NCBI GenBank assembly: GCA_018240785.1
Contig: JAFEFC010000022.1
Span: 1-64,000, forward strand
Source of the DNA: Pseudomonadota bacterium
GTDB taxonomy: Bacteria > Pseudomonadota > Gammaproteobacteria > Burkholderiales > Rhodocyclaceae
DNA length: 64,000 nucleotides
Direction of reading: 5' to 3'
The translations under genes were made by a program, and so were the position numbers. The notes below the pieces were generated by a model. The model ran no database searches and was not told where the DNA came from. It was given only the letters and a program-made list of their open reading frames with translations. This document shows positions 55,730-64,000 of the stretch, piece by piece (positions within the stretch are counted from its first letter, which is position 1; each line of letters begins with the position of its first letter).

Positions 55730-56272
55730 TCATTTGAACGAGTCGCCGCCGAAGGCGATTTCCTTTGTACCTCCGCGGCCCCCCTCGCTGAATCGGCGCA
55801 GCATCCAGTCGAAGCGGATGGGTTCGACGCCAGCGGAGAATTCCACCGAGAGCACGTAGAGTGGCTCGCGGGCCATTCGAAGACGGTCGGCTGGAATCCG
55901 GCTGCGGATCCCGGTGATCAGGAAGGGCCCTTTCAACTCTCCGGTGTAGGGCTTGGCACCAGGCGGCGGCATCTCGCGCCACTGGACGGTCACGGCGTCG
56001 GGAATGCGGCCGCTGCGTTGGTCACCACCGAAGCTGGGGCGCAGCGGAAATTTGGTATCTGGTCGGATGGGGCGCGGGTGTTGCCCCAGTTGCGAGAACC
56101 ACCACTTTTCTGGGTTTCGCGCATCCTCTACCCGGACGTCCTCCAATTCCCGGTCGCATGCATTCCACGCGCCGATGATGAATTCTTCGTCCGAGAACGT
56201 GAGGGTTTCTGCATTGGCGCATCCGAGCAACACTGATGTGCCCGACAGGGTCAGGAATTGGCGTCGATTCAT
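55730..56272 (-). CDS. Candidate immunity lipoprotein for the RHS/DUF2235 toxin
   Basis: 180 residues. The start MNRRQFLTLSGTSVLLGC has a twin-arginine motif and an LLGC lipobox, so it is predicted to be exported and lipid-anchored with Cys18 as first mature residue. The mature part is beta-rich with conserved-looking tryptophans (EFIIGAWNACDRELEDV, PDAVTVQWREMPPPGAKPY, IRFDWMLRRF) and recalls DUF2931-type lipoproteins often found beside lipase effectors; I cannot confirm the family. AGGAG is formed partly by the TAG stop of the RHS gene ten bases upstream, so the pair is translationally coupled. A lipoprotein at the membrane suits protection from a phospholipase. G+C is lower than its neighbours (33 of 60 in 56161-56220). 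Confidence 0.65.
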   Translation of the reverse strand: MNRRQFLTLSGTSVLLGCANAETLTFSDEEFIIGAWNACDRELEDVRVEDARNPEKWWFSQLGQHPRPIRPDTKFPLRPSFGGDQRSGRIPDAVTVQWREMPPPGAKPYTGELKGPFLITGIRSRIPADRLRMAREPLYVLSVEFSAGVEPIRFDWMLRRFSEGGRGGTKEIAFGGDSFK

Positions 56273-56282
56273 CGTATGTCTC

Positions 56283-59200
56283 CTAGTCGAAAGTCAAACC
56301 ATAGTTCTGCGCCAGCCAGTCGCTGTAACGATTGATATCCACCAAGCCGACTCGCCTACTGAGCTGCGGCATGGGCTGCGTGATGCCATCCTGATAGGGA
56401 TCGGCAAGGGGGGGTGGTTCCGAATAGGGGAGGATGTAGGCGAGAGATTCGGCATGGTTGATCCCGTCGAAATCGGCGGAGCGCTCCTTGCGCACCTGAT
56501 CCGGATAGTGGACCTTGCGATCGTCGTCAAATCCGTTCAACGGCGGAGCATTCCACGGTGAGACACGTGACTCGTCATGCACCACAGGATCGGTTATTGC
56601 TCGCTGCGCCGCCCGTAATGGCTTCATTGGAACGCCAGCAGCAACGGCTTGCTGATGCATCCAGTTCAGCGCGATATCCGCCAGATCGCTGCCATCTTCA
56701 ACCAGGTAGCCGCCGCCGATGTCCGCATGTGCCCCGACGAAACCTCGCTCTACGACGTTCGCGCCTGCACCACGGCCCGCGTAGGACGACTCGGCGGATT
56801 CCAGCGGAAAGAGCGCCCGATGTTCGTTGGCGGCGACTGCATGCGCGACATGACCGAGCTCTCCTGCGGGAATCCCGAGCGAAATCACGCCCATCATCTG
56901 CTTGCTCAACACGGTGTCGAACAGGCCGAGGAAGCGGATGTGCACGCCGACGCAGGCTCCGCCCAGCAGGTCGCGGTAGTAGGACTGGTTCCTGCGCGCA
57001 AGGACTTCATTGATGAAATCGCGCGCGGCAGACGCGCCACGGCTGAAGCCGATCACGTCAAGGGTGATCAGCAGCGGAGATTGGGGAGTGATCGTAGTTC
57101 CCTTCACGCGGGCCTCGTTCTCGAACTTGGCCTTGACGTAGTCGTCGAGAGCATTCAATTGCGATTCGACCTTCGATTTCAGGGAGTAAGCGAACGCGCG
57201 GTCACCCAGTTGGTACCATTTCGTCCCAACCCCCTCCACGTAGTACGGGCGATCCGAGTTGGCAATCGAGGCGCTGTCGTTGTCGTTATATGCCTCCTTC
57301 AGCCAATAGATGTTCGTCCTGCTCGATTCGTTGTTTCCTGTCCCGTCGAACGCGAACAGGATGAGGCCGAGCGGGTCGGCGAAGCGCAGCGGGTCGCGTG
57401 CCGCGTAGGCGTAGGGCTGCGTCAGCGGGTGCGGGCCGAGCGGATCGGGCTCCAGGTAGTCGCCGCGGCGGGGATCGTAGGTGCGCAGCACGTTGTCGTG
57501 CCAGCCGGTTTCGACGTCGTGGTACTGGCCGGGCAGGCGCAGATTCAGGTTGAAGCCGGGGCTGATGTCCGCGGCAGTCAGTCCGCGCGCTTCGCCAAAA
57601 AGGGAGTGCCGGGCGCGCCAGATCACGCGGCTGCGCTCGTCGGTCACCGCCACCGGCGTGCCGATTTCATTGGCGTGGACGTAGCGCACCTGCGGCGCGC
57701 TTCGCGTGATGAACTCGCGCACGGTGCGAAGGACGTCCGACAACGCCGTGACTTGGGTCGCCAATGGCCTGCCTGCGGGGTAGTCGAGGATGGCGACAGG
57801 CACGCCGTGCGCGTAGATGTAGCGACGCTTGAGCCTGGGCTGGCCATCCTCTTCCGCCGCTTCGCCAACCAGGCGGTACGAATCCCACAGAAAGAGCGTG
57901 CTGCCCGATCGCCCTGCCGGCACCGCGCCGGGATCGAATACCGTCTTTCGGACACGGCGGCCGAGCGCGTCGTGGTCGTAGCGGGCGAGGAGGTGGTTTC
58001 CGTTCTCGTTCCTGCCGTCTCCCGCCGCCCGACGGACTTCGACCAGCCGTCGGTCGGCGCTGTAGCGAAGAAGGAATTCGCCCAGCCGTTCGGGCAGCCC
58101 GCCGGCGTCCCGGTCGATCTTCTCGCGACGAAAATCCACGCTCACGCCGTCCACGCGCCGGCCGACGACCTCGCCCGCCGCATCGTAGGCATGGTATTCA
58201 GCGCCCGCCGCGTCATGCCCCGCCTGCGCGGCGATCAGGCGTGCCTGACGGTCGTAGGCGAAGCCGACCTCCAAGGTGCGGCGAAGATCCGAGCGTTGAG
58301 AGATCCTGCCGGCGGCGTCATAGCCGTATCGCCAGCCATCGATCAGCTCGCCACTTTCCGCCCCGGGGTCTGCGGCGGGCGCAAGCCCGGGAACCGGGTC
58401 GCTTGCGTGCGCAGGCGCAATCCAGTCTGGCCAACTGCCCTTGGTTGATCGTGGCGGCAGGCGATGGGCGAGATCACGCAGGCGCCCGTCCGCGCCAAGG
58501 CTGAAGCGGACTTCGACGCCATTGCCAAGGCGGTAGCCGCCGCTCGCGATCGCCGCGTCGCGCTCCGCCCCGGAAGGTTGATGCCGCACCGTTAGCGGTC
58601 CAGCCCGCGCAGCCGACGGCAATCGCAGTGGCGAAAGCAGTTGCGTGCGGCGCAGCGCGCCGTCGGTCCATGCGATGCCGCGCAACTGGCGCCCCTTGCC
58701 CCACTCGTAGCTGAGTTCGCCGCCTTCTGGAAGTGCGTGCCTGATCACGCGGTCGGCCGCGTCGTAGGCAAAGCTTTCCCGATACCGCAGACGGGGATGT
58801 CCGGCTCGTGCCGTCGGGCGCTCGACGATGCGCGTGCCAATGCGTCCGGCGCTGTCATGGGTGAAAGTTTCGGTCTCCGCGGGATGCTCGATCCGCACCA
58901 GCCGCGGGCCGGCGTATTGCAGGGCGGTGGTGGTGCTGTCGTCCGTGGCGGCTCCCTGCACCGTATGCGCGACGATCCTGCCCGCTGCGTCGCGCGACCA
59001 GCGCCACACCCTGCCATCGGCGAAGCGCCGCTCGATGATCCGGCCTGCGGCGTCGTGACGATAATGCTCGGGCCCGGTCGCGTCGGTGCGCATGGCCTGC
59101 ACGCGTCCGAAATCGTCGAGCCAGCGCCGGAAGCCCGGCCAATGGCGAACGCCGCCCAGCGTTTCGGGCGTCGGCTCGACGCCTTGCGGGACAAGGCCGG

Positions 59201-61415
59201 TGCTGGAAGATCCAGGAGCTAGGGGCTCGCTCGGCAACCACCCGCCACCGCCAAGGTTGGACACCATGGCGCCGAGGCCATCCGGACCGTCATAGCCAAG
59301 GTGCTGGACCTCGCCGTCAGGCGACTCGATGCGGATCGGCCTGCCCATTGCATCACGCTCGATGTGCACGACGGCATCCGCACGCTGCCAGCGCACAGGA
59401 AAGCCGCCGTGGTCGAACAGGAACCGGATTCGTACGCCGTCGACCGGCGTGTGGGCAATCACACGACCCACCTCGTCGCGCTCGAAACGCTCGACGAGGG
59501 CCATGGGATGCGTGACCGACTCAAGCCAGTTGCCGCCTGCGTCGTACTGCAGTCGCGTGATGTCCGAGTCTGCGGGCGAGGCCCCTGGGCCATTGGGCAA
59601 GGGGCCATCGATCTCTGCCAGCAGGCTGCGCCCGTTGATGCGGGTGTAACGCAACACGGTGCTGCGCTCGATCGGTCGGCCTGCCGCAATGGTCCTGCCC
59701 TGCTCATCAACGGGTTCGAAGCCGGCCTCGTGCATCTGCACCAACTGGCCGTGGGCGTTGTACGTGAGCGAGATGCGGTGCTCCTGGCCCTCGACCACGC
59801 TTGGTCGAGCGATGAGCACGGGCCGACCATCGTCGCCTGCGTATTCGTAGCGCTGCAGCAGACGCGGCGCGCGGCGTGGGCCGGCACGGTGATCCAGGGC
59901 GGTCACCCGCAGGATGCGGCCCAGCGCGTCGCGCATGAGGGTCAAGGTCTGTCGCGGCTGGCCGCTCGCCGCATCGAGCATCGTGGTTTGAGTGAGTCGT
60001 CCGAGCGCATCGTAGCCATACCGCCGATTGGCAGGCGGGCAGCGGCTGCAGCCGGCACCACGGGATTCGAGCAGGCGATAGCCGCCGCCAACGAGCCCGA
60101 TGCGATAAGTCGTCGTCGACCCATTGTCGTCGGTCAGCTGAACCGTCCCGGCTGCGCCGGGCCGAGGGGCGGACTGGAAGGTCACATGGATGCCGCGATC
60201 GGAGCCCCGCAGACTCGCGGTGTCCGTGCCGATCGCACCCGTCGCCGAGAGAACCGCCCGTCCGTCCTCGTCGTACGCATAGGTCGACAGCCGTGTCGTC
60301 GCGCGCTGGCCACCAACCTCGGGTGCGTCCAGACTGATACCCGTCAGCAGCGTCGGATGTCGGGGATCCTCGTAGTGGTACAGGCGCACCGCGCTAGACT
60401 CGTCCGGCCGCGGCCCACTCACGGCCACGAGCAGGCGTCGCCGCGCCCGGTGCGTCACAGCGTCTTCGTCGGCAGGATTGGCGGCTGGCGCATCGGCACC
60501 GTAGCGGTAGCGGAAACTGCCGACCGGCGACGCGATGCGCGCCACCGTCGGCAGAGGAGCCGCGGCCGCCCCAGCAGTGCGCTCGTGATAGTGCAGGTCG
60601 AGCGCGCGCCCCTGGGGATCGATGACCCTGCGCAGGCTGCCGCGGGTGTCGTACAGCAGGCTCACGAACTCGCCGGTCGGGGCGAGGATCCGGGTCAGGC
60701 GGCCCCTGCCGTCGAAATCCAGTATGCGTCCGGCCCCTTCGCCGTGAGTCCACCGCCAGCGGTACGTCTCGCCACGCGTCGATGGGTGGCGCTCCACGAG
60801 GCCCCTGGCGGGGTCGGCCGCAAGGCAGGTCGTGGGCGCGCCGCCCTTGCAGGTGAAAGTCGTCCGGCTGCCATCGGCCTGGACGATGCCGACTGCATCG
60901 CGATCCGCGCGGAGAGTGGTCTCGTAGCTCAGGCGCCAGCCGCGTCCGAGCAGGCCGTTGCGGCTGCGGACCGTGCTCGAGGCGCTGTTGTAGTGACGCA
61001 CGATCTCCAGCCCGAGGACGCCGGGCAAGGCAGCGAGGTCCACTTCGCGCTGATACTTGTTGCCGTTGGTGATGTTGATCGGATTGCCGGCGCCAACATC
61101 GACGCCGCCGTTGCCGACGTCCGCCTGGCTGGCAGGCCCGCCGCCGCCACAGGTGGCCCCGCTCGGAGCGGGCAGGCACATCGTCCCCCCGGCAGCAGGA
61201 TTCTCCAAACCGGGGATGAATGAAGCTTGCCCGCTCGCGGTCGAGGTCTCGCCAAGGCCGAACGCTGGCGTGACCGTGATGCCAGCCAAGAGGAGCGCGA
61301 GCCGGCCGAGCAGGCCGGACATTGCCGTTGCGCTGCCAGGGCTGCCAGGACTGGCGGAGCGCGGTCGCGCCGCGGCGCGCGGCATGCCCCTGAGCCGGCT
61401 CACGGCCGTGAACAT
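56283..61415 (-). CDS. Secreted RHS/YD-repeat protein with C-terminal DUF2235/Tle1-like phospholipase tip
   Basis: 1710 residues. Start at 61415 has GAGGAG eight bases upstream. Residues 32-53 (MSGLLGRLALLLAGITVTPAF) look like a Sec signal after a long basic leader. A DUF6531-like start (GNPINITNGNKYQREVDLAAL) opens a long YD-repeat shell, many repeats GRLTRI, YDTRGSLRRV, YDALGRLTQ. The RHS core end is YDPRRGDYLEPDPLGPHPLT and DPLRFADPLGL. The tip begins at about 1355 (LFAFDGTGNNES) and has Ser1458 (GFSRGAS), Asp1500 (LFDTVLS) and His1563 (GAHADIGGGY), the pattern of DUF2235/Tle1 lipases that attack phospholipids. The gene overlaps the TadE-like gene by 16 bases. No VgrG or PAAR gene is seen. 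Confidence 0.9.
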   Translation of the reverse strand: MFTAVSRLRGMPRAAARPRSASPGSPGSATAMSGLLGRLALLLAGITVTPAFGLGETSTASGQASFIPGLENPAAGGTMCLPAPSGATCGGGGPASQADVGNGGVDVGAGNPINITNGNKYQREVDLAALPGVLGLEIVRHYNSASSTVRSRNGLLGRGWRLSYETTLRADRDAVGIVQADGSRTTFTCKGGAPTTCLAADPARGLVERHPSTRGETYRWRWTHGEGAGRILDFDGRGRLTRILAPTGEFVSLLYDTRGSLRRVIDPQGRALDLHYHERTAGAAAAPLPTVARIASPVGSFRYRYGADAPAANPADEDAVTHRARRRLLVAVSGPRPDESSAVRLYHYEDPRHPTLLTGISLDAPEVGGQRATTRLSTYAYDEDGRAVLSATGAIGTDTASLRGSDRGIHVTFQSAPRPGAAGTVQLTDDNGSTTTYRIGLVGGGYRLLESRGAGCSRCPPANRRYGYDALGRLTQTTMLDAASGQPRQTLTLMRDALGRILRVTALDHRAGPRRAPRLLQRYEYAGDDGRPVLIARPSVVEGQEHRISLTYNAHGQLVQMHEAGFEPVDEQGRTIAAGRPIERSTVLRYTRINGRSLLAEIDGPLPNGPGASPADSDITRLQYDAGGNWLESVTHPMALVERFERDEVGRVIAHTPVDGVRIRFLFDHGGFPVRWQRADAVVHIERDAMGRPIRIESPDGEVQHLGYDGPDGLGAMVSNLGGGGWLPSEPLAPGSSSTGLVPQGVEPTPETLGGVRHWPGFRRWLDDFGRVQAMRTDATGPEHYRHDAAGRIIERRFADGRVWRWSRDAAGRIVAHTVQGAATDDSTTTALQYAGPRLVRIEHPAETETFTHDSAGRIGTRIVERPTARAGHPRLRYRESFAYDAADRVIRHALPEGGELSYEWGKGRQLRGIAWTDGALRRTQLLSPLRLPSAARAGPLTVRHQPSGAERDAAIASGGYRLGNGVEVRFSLGADGRLRDLAHRLPPRSTKGSWPDWIAPAHASDPVPGLAPAADPGAESGELIDGWRYGYDAAGRISQRSDLRRTLEVGFAYDRQARLIAAQAGHDAAGAEYHAYDAAGEVVGRRVDGVSVDFRREKIDRDAGGLPERLGEFLLRYSADRRLVEVRRAAGDGRNENGNHLLARYDHDALGRRVRKTVFDPGAVPAGRSGSTLFLWDSYRLVGEAAEEDGQPRLKRRYIYAHGVPVAILDYPAGRPLATQVTALSDVLRTVREFITRSAPQVRYVHANEIGTPVAVTDERSRVIWRARHSLFGEARGLTAADISPGFNLNLRLPGQYHDVETGWHDNVLRTYDPRRGDYLEPDPLGPHPLTQPYAYAARDPLRFADPLGLILFAFDGTGNNESSRTNIYWLKEAYNDNDSASIANSDRPYYVEGVGTKWYQLGDRAFAYSLKSKVESQLNALDDYVKAKFENEARVKGTTITPQSPLLITLDVIGFSRGASAARDFINEVLARRNQSYYRDLLGGACVGVHIRFLGLFDTVLSKQMMGVISLGIPAGELGHVAHAVAANEHRALFPLESAESSYAGRGAGANVVERGFVGAHADIGGGYLVEDGSDLADIALNWMHQQAVAAGVPMKPLRAAQRAITDPVVHDESRVSPWNAPPLNGFDDDRKVHYPDQVRKERSADFDGINHAESLAYILPYSEPPPLADPYQDGITQPMPQLSRRVGLVDINRYSDWLAQNYGLTFD

Positions 61416-62332
61416 TGCAGCGGCTCCTCATCGTCCAGCGCGTGCGGCACTTCCTCTTCCATTCCGCTGCCGTTGCCCGCTGCGCTCTCGTGAGCACTGG
61501 AAGGCGTGCACAGTGGGTCGCTCCACGGGCAGGATGGGAGTGCCTGGCCTTGGGCATCTGCGCCCGCGCCTGCGTCCACCGGGACACCGGCATTCCCTGG
61601 CCCCGGCAGCGACAGCAGGGCGTCGTTCTCGATTGCATCGGACTGCATGCGCACCGTCACATGCGAGACCAGCGGAATGCGGCCAGCAGCGAGAAGGGCA
61701 CGGCGAAACGGGTCGGGATGATCCGGGTACAGCGTGGCGACGGCCCAGTTGAAGAAGCGGCCGGCGAGGGGAATCTGCTTCGCACGGGGAATCCCGAAGG
61801 TCACCCGGATCTTCAGCAGGTTGGCGTCCTGCAGTGTCTGCCCGGAGCGATTCGATGCTGGGTCACTCGCGCAGGAGGGGCGGTCGGCGGGGCAGGCGAG
61901 CCGGTCAAGATGGGTGCTGGGAATGACCCGCGCGCCGACGCGCAGGGCCTCGGCTGCGCGCGGGCTGTGGAAATCGTCGAAGCTCTCCCGCGTCGGCGAC
62001 AGGATCTCGATGCGAAGCGCCCCTGCCAGGTCTGCGAGGGCGCGCCCATGCGAGCGCGCGAGCTCGGCGGTGGTGCGTCCTCCGCCGTAGTAGGGAACCA
62101 TGGCCCGCGCGAAAGCGGCACGAAGGGTGGACGGCAGGGCGTTCTGCAATGCCCCGGCGCGGGCGGCTTCGAAAGTCGCGTAGTTCAGGATGTTCTTGGC
62201 GTGAAAGACGAGACCGGTCTGCATCATCGCCAGGGCGAGCATCATGAGGGTTGGCGCGATGACGACGAATTCCACCAGCGTGGCGCCGTCATGGACTGCA
62301 CGACCTGATCGCAGCGCGAGCAACGGTCTCAT
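61400..62332 (-). CDS. TadE-like minor pseudopilin with long C-terminal extension
   Basis: 310 residues, about twice the common TadE length. The prepilin-like segment DGATLVEFVVIAPTLMMLAL has Gly followed by ATLVE, the TadV-type cleavage pattern with Glu at +5, and then an N-terminal hydrophobic helix. The middle part (FGIPRAKQIPLAGRFFNW) is TadE-like; the tail holds cysteines and acidic residues (SCPWSDPLCTPSS, MEEEVPHALDDEEPLQC) and is not recognised. Overlaps the DUF192 gene as ATGA and the RHS gene by 16 bases. TadE proteins help assemble Flp pili. Confidence 0.83.
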   Translation of the reverse strand: MRPLLALRSGRAVHDGATLVEFVVIAPTLMMLALAMMQTGLVFHAKNILNYATFEAARAGALQNALPSTLRAAFARAMVPYYGGGRTTAELARSHGRALADLAGALRIEILSPTRESFDDFHSPRAAEALRVGARVIPSTHLDRLACPADRPSCASDPASNRSGQTLQDANLLKIRVTFGIPRAKQIPLAGRFFNWAVATLYPDHPDPFRRALLAAGRIPLVSHVTVRMQSDAIENDALLSLPGPGNAGVPVDAGAGADAQGQALPSCPWSDPLCTPSSAHESAAGNGSGMEEEVPHALDDEEPLQCSRP

Positions 62333-62688
62333 CGGAGGACGCTCTCCAGTCCGGCCAGGCGGGTGCCGCGGTACAAGCCTGCTTCCGCCGCACCGCCAGC
62401 GGCCATCTCGAGGACGGCGCGTGCGGCGGGAACAGCGGCGATTCGCCAGGGCTGCAGCCGCTCTATGACATCGACGACGTTTGCGCCGCGGTCGATAAAG
62501 ACCGCGTCGATTGCATCGCGCATTCCGAAGGTGTGGATGCGGCAGCACGGCAGGATGAGCAACGCTTCCGCCGGCGGCAGCGGCGCGGAGAAGAGCAGTC
62601 CGCATGCGCGCGCCATGAAGTCGGCCGCGATGCGAACCGTGATAGGCCCGCATTGGGTACGGATGTGGATGACTTTCGCACGGAGCAT
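62329..62688 (-). CDS. DUF192 family protein
   Basis: 119 residues from the ATG at 62688, two bases after tadC. The DUF192 signature is CRIHTFGMRDAIDAVFIDRG, with ERLQPWRIA and the ending GLYRGTRLAGLESVL. The function is unknown; members are small, often exported, but here no signal peptide is evident. It sits inside Tad operons of several betaproteobacteria, suggesting an accessory role in pilus assembly. Confidence 0.88.
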   Translation of the reverse strand: MLRAKVIHIRTQCGPITVRIAADFMARACGLLFSAPLPPAEALLILPCCRIHTFGMRDAIDAVFIDRGANVVDVIERLQPWRIAAVPAARAVLEMAAGGAAEAGLYRGTRLAGLESVLR

Positions 62689-62690
62689 CT

Positions 62691-63581
62691 TCACAAGCCC
62701 ATGCGCATGAACTGCACCACGATCGGGAAGCCGATGACGAGGAAGGTGCAGGGGAAGATGAAGGCGATGAGCGGGAACAGCATCCTTACCGGCGCCTCCA
62801 TCGCCGCCTTCTCCGCGCGTGCGAAGCGCTCGACGCGCCGCTGCTCGGCTTGTGCCCGGAGCAGGGGGCCGAGGTTCATGCCGAGGTTCTCGGCCTGGAT
62901 GATGGCCGTGACGAGGTTTGTGATTGGCGGTTCGTTGAGGCGGTCGCCGAAGGTGCGCAGCGCATCGGCACGGGATTTGCCCGCCCGCACATCGCGCAGC
63001 ACGCGCTGGAGTTCGTCCCGCAGCGGCCCGGCCGGCCCCTTGGCTGCGGCCTGCTGCAACGCGCCGGTAAGATTGAGCCCGGCCTCGACACAGAGCGTGA
63101 TCAGATCGAGAAAGAAGGGCAGCGTCTTCAGCAGGTGCCGCCGGCGGGCGGCCACGCGGTCGGCAAACCACGCGCGTGCGAAGAGCCAGCCCGCGACCGC
63201 TCCTGCCGCCACGAAGAGCCGCGGCTGCGGACTTTGCCAGCCATGGGCGAGCAAGCCCCCAAGCCCGCCGGACAAGGCCGCGACCACGACACGATGCGCG
63301 ATGAGTTGCGCCGGCGAGACGGCGTAGTCGAGGCCGGCAACGCGCATCCGGGCCAGAAGGCGTTGGCGCAAGCCAATGGGCAGCGCCCCGCCCGCCCAGT
63401 GCGCCAGCACCAGTGTCGGCCACCACAGCCAGCGGATGAAGGCGGGGGGGCGATCGCGCCAGGTACGGTCCTCACGTGGAACCGCTACGATCGCGCGCAT
63501 TCCCACCCAGGTGAGGAGCGCGGCCGCGGCACCGGCGAGGCCGGCGACCAGGGCGGGTAGATATCGAGGGTCGATGGGCAT
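62691..63581 (-). CDS. tadC: TadC, inner-membrane platform protein of the Tad pilus
   Basis: 296 residues. Type II secretion F domain: LPFFLDLITLCVEAGLNL, PLRDELQRVLRDVRAGKSRADALR, with flanking hydrophobic segments (LPALVAGLAGAAAALLTWVG, VVVAALSGGLGGLL, LFPLIAFIFPCTFLVIGFPIVV). It pairs with TadB to form the pilus assembly platform driven by TadA. It starts 12 bases after tadB. Confidence 0.93.
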   Translation of the reverse strand: MPIDPRYLPALVAGLAGAAAALLTWVGMRAIVAVPREDRTWRDRPPAFIRWLWWPTLVLAHWAGGALPIGLRQRLLARMRVAGLDYAVSPAQLIAHRVVVAALSGGLGGLLAHGWQSPQPRLFVAAGAVAGWLFARAWFADRVAARRRHLLKTLPFFLDLITLCVEAGLNLTGALQQAAAKGPAGPLRDELQRVLRDVRAGKSRADALRTFGDRLNEPPITNLVTAIIQAENLGMNLGPLLRAQAEQRRVERFARAEKAAMEAPVRMLFPLIAFIFPCTFLVIGFPIVVQFMRMGL

Positions 63582-63593
63582 GATCGGTCTACC

Positions 63594-64000
63594 TCAAACG
63601 TCGATCGCGACCACACGCCTGATCAACAGCACGCCGAACAGCTCGAGCAAGGCGATCGTGCCCAGCGTCGCCCAGCCGAGCGGCGTGCTCCACATCAGGC
63701 CCATCGCCTGCGGCTCCATGCGTCCAAGGACCAGCAGCAAACCGATCGGGAGAAACCCGACGACGACGGCCTGCAGTTTTCCCTGCGCAGTCAGCGCGCG
63801 AATCTTCGCCTCCATCGCAAGTTGGCTGCGGATCGTCATCGCGGCGCGATCGAGCGCCTCGGCGAGGCTGCCACCGGTCTCGCTGGCGATGCGCATCGCG
63901 GAAACCACCAGAGTCACCGACTGCAAGGGCACGCGGCGCGCGAGATTTTCGAGCGCAGCATCGACGGCGACGCCCAGTCGCTGTTCGCGCAGCAGCAGCT
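63594..64000 (-). CDS. tadB: TadB, inner-membrane platform protein of the Tad pilus (5' end beyond window)
   Basis: The open frame continues to base 64000 without a start, giving 135 residues of the C-terminal part. It begins LLLREQRLGVAVDAALENLA and contains MRIASETGGSLAEALDRAA, the T2SSF signature, then hydrophobic helices (AVVVGFLPIGLLLVLG, LGTIALLELFGVLLIRR). Other Tad genes (tadA, rcpA, rcpC, flp) are expected to the right of the window. Confidence 0.93.
   Translation of the reverse strand, partial: LLLREQRLGVAVDAALENLARRVPLQSVTLVVSAMRIASETGGSLAEALDRAAMTIRSQLAMEAKIRALTAQGKLQAVVVGFLPIGLLLVLGRMEPQAMGLMWSTPLGWATLGTIALLELFGVLLIRRVVAIDV

Follow-up and report, generated by a model that had tools for sequence, protein, structure and literature searches.

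The killing, Tad-like Kil pilus of Myxococcus xanthus, whose minor-pilin tips are interchangeable, is the nearest system known to the one described here, and the available text of the two reports on it (Herrou et al. 2025, PMC12075869; Seef et al. 2021, PMC8460266) leaves open what the toxin is. More generally, the available text of two papers places minor pilins at the Tad pilus tip, where they are able to carry variable domains (PMC12075869; PMC13170226). Here we analysed a stretch of 64,000 nucleotides (the window; contig positions 1-64000) from the 4.7 Mb genome of an environmental bacterium of the genus Thauera, whose nearest named relatives include Thauera sp. 2A1, T. phenylacetica B4P and T. 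aminoaromatica S2. At the right end of the window, the minus strand carries the genes tadB-tadC-DUF192-tadE2-RHS-lipoprotein, which are the 3′ half of a Tad operon and include a gene for an RHS polymorphic toxin with a phospholipase-like tip. Comparison with related genomes makes it likely that this operon builds a Tad pilus whose minor-pilin tip carries the RHS protein as an antibacterial toxin.

At the level of its genes, the locus resembles the Kil system in its Tad pilus, in TadE/F/G-like minor pilins that would expose variable domains and in predicted contact-dependent killing; it differs in that Kil, in the available text, works with KilLMN complexes and a needleless type III secretion system, whereas Thauera and its relatives have a separate or fused RHS toxin and a lipoprotein gene, and the term 'RHS' occurs nowhere in the main text of PMC12075869. 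As to the Kil-type trait of a variable domain borne by a minor pilin at the pilus tip, relatives have TadE and RHS in one chain and Thauera has them as separate proteins, with the tip position predicted. With the RHS and Tle1 effectors of the type VI secretion system (T6SS) the protein shares the RHS shell and the Tle1 catalytic motifs, and it differs from them by lacking PAAR and VgrG domains, by its signal-peptide-like or prepilin start, by its place in a Tad operon and by occurring in 13 of 19 genomes without a match to the T6SS protein VipB. The ADPLGL motif ahead of its tip is like the DPxGL motif that precedes the tip in T6SS RHS effectors. A soluble protein on a pilus is also exemplified by TcpF on TcpB, a pair that belongs to a type IVb pilus, not a Tad pilus, and is not an RHS toxin with an immunity gene. 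The likeness is that TcpF of Vibrio cholerae is secreted and carried by a terminal minor pilin, as the available text of PMC12075869 describes it. The nearest printed precedent that we found is the association of polymorphic ARC toxin domains with 'Flp pilins' (PMC12605009), given in the available text as one phrase in an architecture list, with no analysis there of a Tad locus, an RHS-pilin or delivery. CpaL of Caulobacter likewise resembles a minor pilin and bears an additional domain at the Tad pilus tip; in the available account (PMC13170226), this domain is a vWA domain and not a toxin. Sec-exported proteins of the Rhs/WapA type, including the myxobacterial Rhs4/5 (available text of PMC10433427), are similarly large RHS proteins with a signal sequence and independent of the T6SS; the present protein differs from them in its link to a single minor pilin, through its place in the operon and, among relatives, through gene fusion. 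No description of RHS toxins on Tad pili was found in the open-licence literature (preprints not covered); both the killing Tad pilus and the RHS polymorphic toxin are known kinds, and their combination, which the initial annotation of the window did not know as a described system, is new as far as we found.

RHS toxin genes behind tadE2 in Thauera

Twenty-nine Thauera genomes, including the source, were searched, and 20 of them gave a TadE2 match; one (G011, 68% complete) was not usable, its contig stopping at tadE2, which left 19. An RHS gene lies behind tadE2 in all 19, and the order tadB-tadC-DUF192-tadE2-RHS is visible in 18. The RHS N-terminal domain DUF6531 was matched exactly once per genome in all 19, always in the RHS behind tadE2, while the nine Thauera genomes that lack TadE2 contain no DUF6531 in six cases, a single one in one case and five in two cases. 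The RHS gene is complete in 16 of the 19 genomes (those of G016, G021 and G024 run off their contigs), and a start codon lies between -16 and +25 bp from the tadE2 stop in each of the 16. In G019, the start of an unrelated dehydrogenase stands, in the same frame, where the 5′ part of tadE2 is expected, a joint that is probably an assembly fault. The 19 loci count as one ancestral event. The initial annotation had stated that its proposal would fail if close relatives sharing this Tad locus lacked the RHS gene or kept it at another place; no such case occurred within Thauera, and the pattern was encountered only outside the genus (G034).

Fusion of TadE with RHS outside the order

The RHS N-terminal profile, built exclusively from RHS proteins that are not joined to TadE, was searched against 369 genomes of the class, and 16 genomes besides the source matched. 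In five of the 16 (G518, G470, G641, G781 and G489), representing four genera with G518 and G641 in one, a single open frame matches both TadE2 and RHS, and in G707 the two are adjacent and not fused. These six genomes are the best-scoring six of the sixteen, and TadE2 was not found in the examined flanks of the other ten. Three fusions were scanned whole (1963, 1805 and 1906 aa) and showed TadE above the Pfam cut-off together with DUF6531 and RHS repeats, with a Tle1 tip above cut-off in two of them; contig edges cut the fusions of G781, which starts past the prepilin part, and of G641, which ends early. Upstream of the fusion gene G470 carries rcpC, rcpA, tadA, tadB, tadC and DUF192 as in Thauera, differing by an extra small frame between tadC and DUF192, and two similar lipoprotein genes follow the fused lipase toxin of G489. 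No tad genes were seen within ~6 kb of the fusion in G518. Residues G16 and E21, corresponding to the prepilin positions G-1 and E+5, are invariant in seven aligned separate and fused TadE proteins.

In a tree of 53 RHS rows (G489, L192, L195 and L074, each below 150 aa, are left out), the Tad-linked label requires 4 changes, compared with 16.4 in shuffles, none of 500 being as low. All Tad-linked rows fall on one side of the tree, which also includes the RHS of 11 genomes in which this gene is not beside tadE2; nine of these have TadE2 elsewhere and two do not. Among 72,556 plasmid records, TadE2 gave one distant match and a TadE-RHS fusion query matched 864, none covering 80% of it, the 20 listed matches hitting the RHS part only, and this search is not informative on plasmid carriage.

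The initial annotation had suggested that the RHS is displayed with or delivered by the Tad machine, and had allowed that the operon position is chance. Chance is excluded, and local insertion rejected, by the 19 of 19 Thauera loci, by recurrence in three other families (below) and above all by the TadE-RHS fusions in four genera. Because minor pilins sit at the Tad tip and carry variable domains, a TadE protein ending in an RHS-lipase is best read as an armed tip. The first part of the suggestion therefore stands: display on the pilus tip is well supported at the level of sequence, by the operon, its conservation, the domains, the fusions, the varied toxins at one place and the matched tip and neighbour genes. 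For delivery, we infer transfer into the target, killing and immunity, and likewise the docking on TadE2 in Thauera and the tip position itself.

In the mechanism that we propose, the operon would make a divergent Flp-like pilin, three TadE/TadG-like minor pilins, a secretin, RcpC, the TadA motor and the TadB/C platform. Via Sec, the RHS protein would reach the periplasm, where it would bind the globular or C-terminal part of TadE2, and it would then pass the secretin on the end of the growing pilus. Its shell would enclose a Tle1-type phospholipase acting on the membrane of the touched cell, and the lipoprotein encoded behind it would guard the periplasm of the producer. Such pili are probably armed spears against neighbouring cells. 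The fusion predicts that a pilus tip can bring a caged enzyme to a neighbour, and the locus thereby touches two open questions, namely by what route RHS toxins that carry signal peptides get to other cells in the absence of a T6SS, and what Tad pilus tips do outside predators. If the proposal is true, killing Tad pili extend from myxobacterial predators to other bacteria.

The alternative that survives best, although we regard it as unlikely, is that the Tad machine works as a pseudopilus like that of the type II secretion system (T2SS), in which TadE2 recruits the RHS-lipase and the toxin is released through the secretin and not kept on the tip. The separate Thauera RHS with its signal-peptide-like start would suit release, and an analogy with the T2SS is discussed for the Kil pilus in the available text of PMC12075869 and PMC8460266; however, a fused RHS belongs to the same chain as the minor pilin, from which only cleavage would release it, and a pilin-like gene stands at the operon head. 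A Tad machine without any pilin, which a strict Flp_Fap search finding no pilin in the genome had suggested, was rejected when a relaxed search revealed this weak pilin-like gene, and such genes upstream of the cluster in most other Thauera genomes covered.

Co-divergence of toxin tips and neighbour genes

A toxin and its immunity gene are expected to change together. In 15 of the 16 complete Thauera RHS genes, the tip shows the motifs GFSRG, G[AS]H[AS]DIGG and HD (FDTVLS also in 14 of these), and a frame with a lipobox starts between -55 and +28 bp from the RHS stop in all 15. The complete RHS of G019 has a different tip, of no Pfam family, with a 4-bp overlap to a 205-aa neighbour gene that shows no lipobox; this rules out that one fixed lipase is shared by all Thauera, and a neighbour gene that changes with the tip is as expected for a toxin with its immunity protein. 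No Pfam or NCBIfam family was matched by the lipoproteins scanned, and four aligned members have only short motifs in common. From these genes, the lipoprotein is likely to be a periplasmic immunity protein.

Between the source genome and Thauera sp. 2A1 (G007), DNA identity in 400-base steps is 91-99% outside and 74-91% over 55.6-59.6 kb, which covers the lipoprotein gene and the C-terminal part of the RHS gene, and it recovers in the next gene. Synonymous divergence (dS) between the two genomes is 0.10-0.11 in tadB, tadC and tadE2 and 0.07 in DUF192, and climbs along the RHS gene from 0.12 through 0.28 and 0.45 to 0.63 in the tip, with 0.68 in the lipoprotein gene. The ratio of nonsynonymous to synonymous divergence (dN/dS) is 0.15 for the tip and 0.10 for the lipoprotein. 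These results demonstrated that the tip and the neighbouring lipoprotein diverge jointly, under purifying selection.

The same observations bear on the improbable alternative that the tip-borne RHS-lipase serves adhesion, lipid scavenging or attack on eukaryotes and not the killing of bacteria. Such a role would fit the same lipase class in 15 of 16 complete Thauera RHS genes and the variable domains of several uses that the available text of PMC12075869 describes on Tad minor pilins. The lipobox frame behind all 15 lipase-tipped genes, its two similar copies in G013 and G489, the joint divergence of tip and lipoprotein and the lysozyme-type toxins that occupy the same place elsewhere all stand against it, and the different tip and neighbour in G019 make it less likely.

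As side observations, another frame separates the two similar lipoprotein genes that follow the G013 RHS (L040:5829-8030), as in immunity gene arrays, and the tips of the Tad-linked RHS in G019 (L049:7111-12644) and G707, a genome of another order (L251:8581-12888), look alike by eye just after the RHS core and are unlike the lipase tips.

Toxins behind tadE2 in other families of the order

The TadE2 profile matches 44 of 399 genomes of the order. The stretch behind tadE2 was viewed in 30 genomes of the order outside Thauera, most of them from this profile search and G034 added from the search made for Thauera; several offered only 1.2-1.6 kb, and the tadE2 loci of G169, G272 and G387, with too little sequence behind tadE2, were left uncounted. 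A recognised or likely toxin was found behind tadE2 in four of the 30. G092 carries an RHS with another tip ~25 bp behind tadE2. In G255 there is an array in which three RHS N-termini occur and whose first gene is split over two frames. In G086, a GH19-like secreted protein (match E 1e-4, under the family cut-off), a lipoprotein, a large lipoprotein and an RHS with a Tle1-like tip follow. G131 has two tadE2 loci, the first followed by a secreted pesticin-like protein (PF16754, E 2e-31) and the second by a hypothetical secreted protein and a lipoprotein. Toxins behind the same tadE2 thus recur in three other families, and the four loci are a lower bound because among the remaining 26 the Pfam scan of the first gene behind tadE2 was limited to G126 (DUF3617) and G276 (beta-helix).

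The N-termini of the pesticin-like and GH19-like toxins align with a score of 95 against a best of 55 in 1000 shuffles. For the 401-aa protein of G131, none of 1000 shuffles scored as high against the GH19-like N-terminus, and 183 of 1000 did against the pesticin-like one. Support for a shared N-terminal tag is therefore limited to two of the toxins, the third being uncertain. The motif C[DP]P-x(2-4)-C, chosen post hoc, occurs in 5 of 322 signal-peptide-like frames, a list that may contain overlapping copies of one locus, and all five are toxins of tadE2 loci; it is absent from the Thauera RHS proteins.

The RHS N-terminal profile matches 22 of the 399 genomes. TadE2 is present in 13 of these 22 and in 31 of the 377 others (Fisher P 1.5e-8, or 8e-8 without the source genome); counted by genus, P is 6e-4, or 0.002 without the source. 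The five top-scoring RHS genomes all carry TadE2, at a score limit picked after seeing the data.

That the RHS is an ordinary Sec-exported surface toxin, hitch-hiking in the operon and independent of the Tad machine, is more improbable still. Related RHS genes do lie away from the Tad locus (G045, G034, G137), and the myxobacterial Rhs4/5 are T6SS-independent and thought to be surface-located in the available text of PMC10433427, but a free surface toxin would explain neither the TadE-RHS fusions nor start codons near the tadE2 stop in 16 of 16 complete genes nor the recurrence in other families.

Beyond the proposed toxin-tipped pilus of Thauera itself, the chances seem even that these loci represent a distinct contact-dependent antagonism system, in which Tad pili with TadE2 as a 'toxin socket' present interchangeable polymorphic toxins with matching immunity genes. 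The toxins of such a system would be the RHS-lipase, RHS proteins with other tips and lysozyme-type enzymes, attached either by docking via a cysteine segment at the N-terminus or by fusion with the pilin.

Three further features of these loci were recorded. A short tadE2 remnant stands behind a lipase-tip end and its lipoprotein in G086 (L215:2208-2429), which suggests movement of toxin cassettes through the site. The tadE2 protein of G255 (L170:14380-15630) has, by eye, an OmpA-like C-terminal stretch. The related RHS of G034 lies directly behind a 1213-aa frame with a signal-peptide-like start (L106:3682-7323).

Counter-evidence and the T6SS route

Several observations weigh against a Tad pilus tipped with an antibacterial RHS toxin. 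TadE2 and RHS are separate proteins in Thauera, and because of this their binding there is argued from the fusions elsewhere. The pilin-like gene at the head of the operon (89 aa) reaches only 16.9 bits for Flp_Fap against a cut-off of 32.2. In 26 of the 30 other genomes of the order, no recognised toxin was seen behind tadE2. Among the 22 RHS genomes of the order nine lack TadE2, and eight of the 13 with both fall in one family (f10), for which reason the genus-level P is the fairer figure. Related RHS genes are located away from the Tad locus in G034, G137 and G134; G034, of the same family as Thauera, has a Tad locus without an adjacent RHS and its related RHS on another contig. Finally, VipB is present in the source genome, and its absence elsewhere does not bear on a T6SS route in this strain.

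VipB was matched in the source and five other Tad-RHS Thauera genomes and not in the other 13 of the 19, eight of which are at least 90% complete, including the single-contig G006, G009 and G017; T6SS delivery as a general route was therefore rejected. Tle1 lipases and many RHS toxins are T6SS effectors, yet with VipB in so few of these genomes, and with a protein that has a signal-peptide-like start and in which neither PAAR nor VgrG nor any other domain for T6SS targeting was found, it is scarcely credible that this RHS is a T6SS effector whose gene came into the Tad operon by accident.

Architecture of the operon and of the RHS protein

The gene set, its minus-strand orientation and its tight spacing, as given in the initial annotation, were all borne out.

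Table 1. Features of the tadB-lipoprotein region and of the RHS protein (window positions)
Feature	Position	Strand	Basis or remark
tadB, 3′ part	63594..64000	-	PF00482, 44 bits; whole gene 61 bits, reaching contig 64448 outside the window
tadC	62691..63581	-	PF00482 (T2SSF), 75.1 bits; order conserved in relatives
DUF192 protein between tadC and tadE2	62329..62688	-	PF02643, 58.3 bits
tadE2, TadE-like minor pilin, 310 aa	61400..62332	-	PF07811, 49.9 bits, cut-off 22.9
RHS polymorphic toxin, 1710 aa	56283..61415	-	PF20148, PF05593, PF09994; RHS core domain
Signal-peptide-like core of RHS, residues 32-53, MSGLLGRLALLLAGITVTPAFG	61257..61322	-	Translation inspected by eye
Short segment with a Cys pair ahead of DUF6531 (CLPAPSGATC)	61089..61256	-	Proposed docking segment
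DUF6531 domain	60855..61088	-	Sole one found in the source genome
Tle1-like phospholipase tip after ADPLGL	56286..57353	-	PF09994; GFSRGA, FDTVLS, GAHADIGG, VHDES
Small lipoprotein, 180 aa, lipobox LLGC	55730..56272	-	Sequence; no Pfam or NCBIfam family

The gap between tadC and DUF192 is 2 bp, DUF192 and tadE2 share an ATGA overlap, and TAGGAGA overlaps the RHS stop ahead of the lipoprotein gene. The overlap of tadE2 and RHS is 16 bases when the first RHS ATG (61415) is taken as start; it hinges on this choice because further in-frame ATGs lie at +14 and +77, the latter directly preceding the signal-peptide-like core. The region contains four terminator-like sites, against 8.8 expected by chance, and none lies at the tadE2-RHS junction.

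Upstream, the operon extends past the window to the divergent Flp-like pilin gene (contig 73150-73419, 9.4 kb beyond the window), which is followed by lnt, a TadG-like gene, a TadE-like gene, a hypothetical gene, rcpC, the secretin gene rcpA, FHA-tadA and tadB. The operon contains the ATPase, platform, secretin and RcpC of a Tad machine, with T2SSE (213 bits), T2SSF, Secretin (133 bits) and RcpC (82 bits); among the minor pilins, TadE2 and the Tad PF13400 match (24.7 bits) are above cut-off and TadE1 (13.6 bits) is below. Neither tadV nor tadZ turned up in the scan of the operon, to which the search for them was confined. Weak pilin matches lie upstream of the cluster on the same contig in 14 of the 16 tadE2-bearing Thauera genomes covered and on another contig in G016 and G019.

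The RHS protein has the composition of an RHS polymorphic toxin, namely DUF6531, RHS repeats, an RHS core and a variable C-terminal tip. Its Tle1-like catalytic domain scores 76.8 bits against a cut-off of 27 and matches three solved structures, namely 4o5p (Tle1 of Pseudomonas aeruginosa), 6sjl and 9j3f, whose entry bears the name of a Tle1 phospholipase domain protein. The Tle1 motifs including the GxSxG nucleophile are present, and lipase activity is predicted. Pfam and NCBIfam scans of the protein found no PAAR, VgrG or other T6SS targeting domain. TadE2 carries the prepilin-type G-1 and E+5 and a C-terminal tail with cysteine and proline, and cysteine pairs recur in the N-termini of Tad-linked RHS proteins; we propose that the Cys-pair segment of the RHS and the cysteine-containing tail of TadE2 may bind each other.

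Other genes of the operon provided some minor observations. Across the order, most of the scanned tadE2 loci have the DUF192 gene between tadC and tadE2, and G470, with its fused TadE-RHS, has it too. A gene for apolipoprotein N-acyltransferase (Lnt) lies inside the Tad operon (contig 71560-73119; L003:16560-18119) in the source and five other Thauera genomes; an Lnt-like frame adjoins tad genes in G131, and no match was found in the stretch examined of T. aminoaromatica S2, itself a carrier of the Tad-RHS locus. The TadA ATPase (contig 64445-66127; L003:9445-11127) has an N-terminal FHA domain, with 35.2 bits at a cut-off of 20.7.

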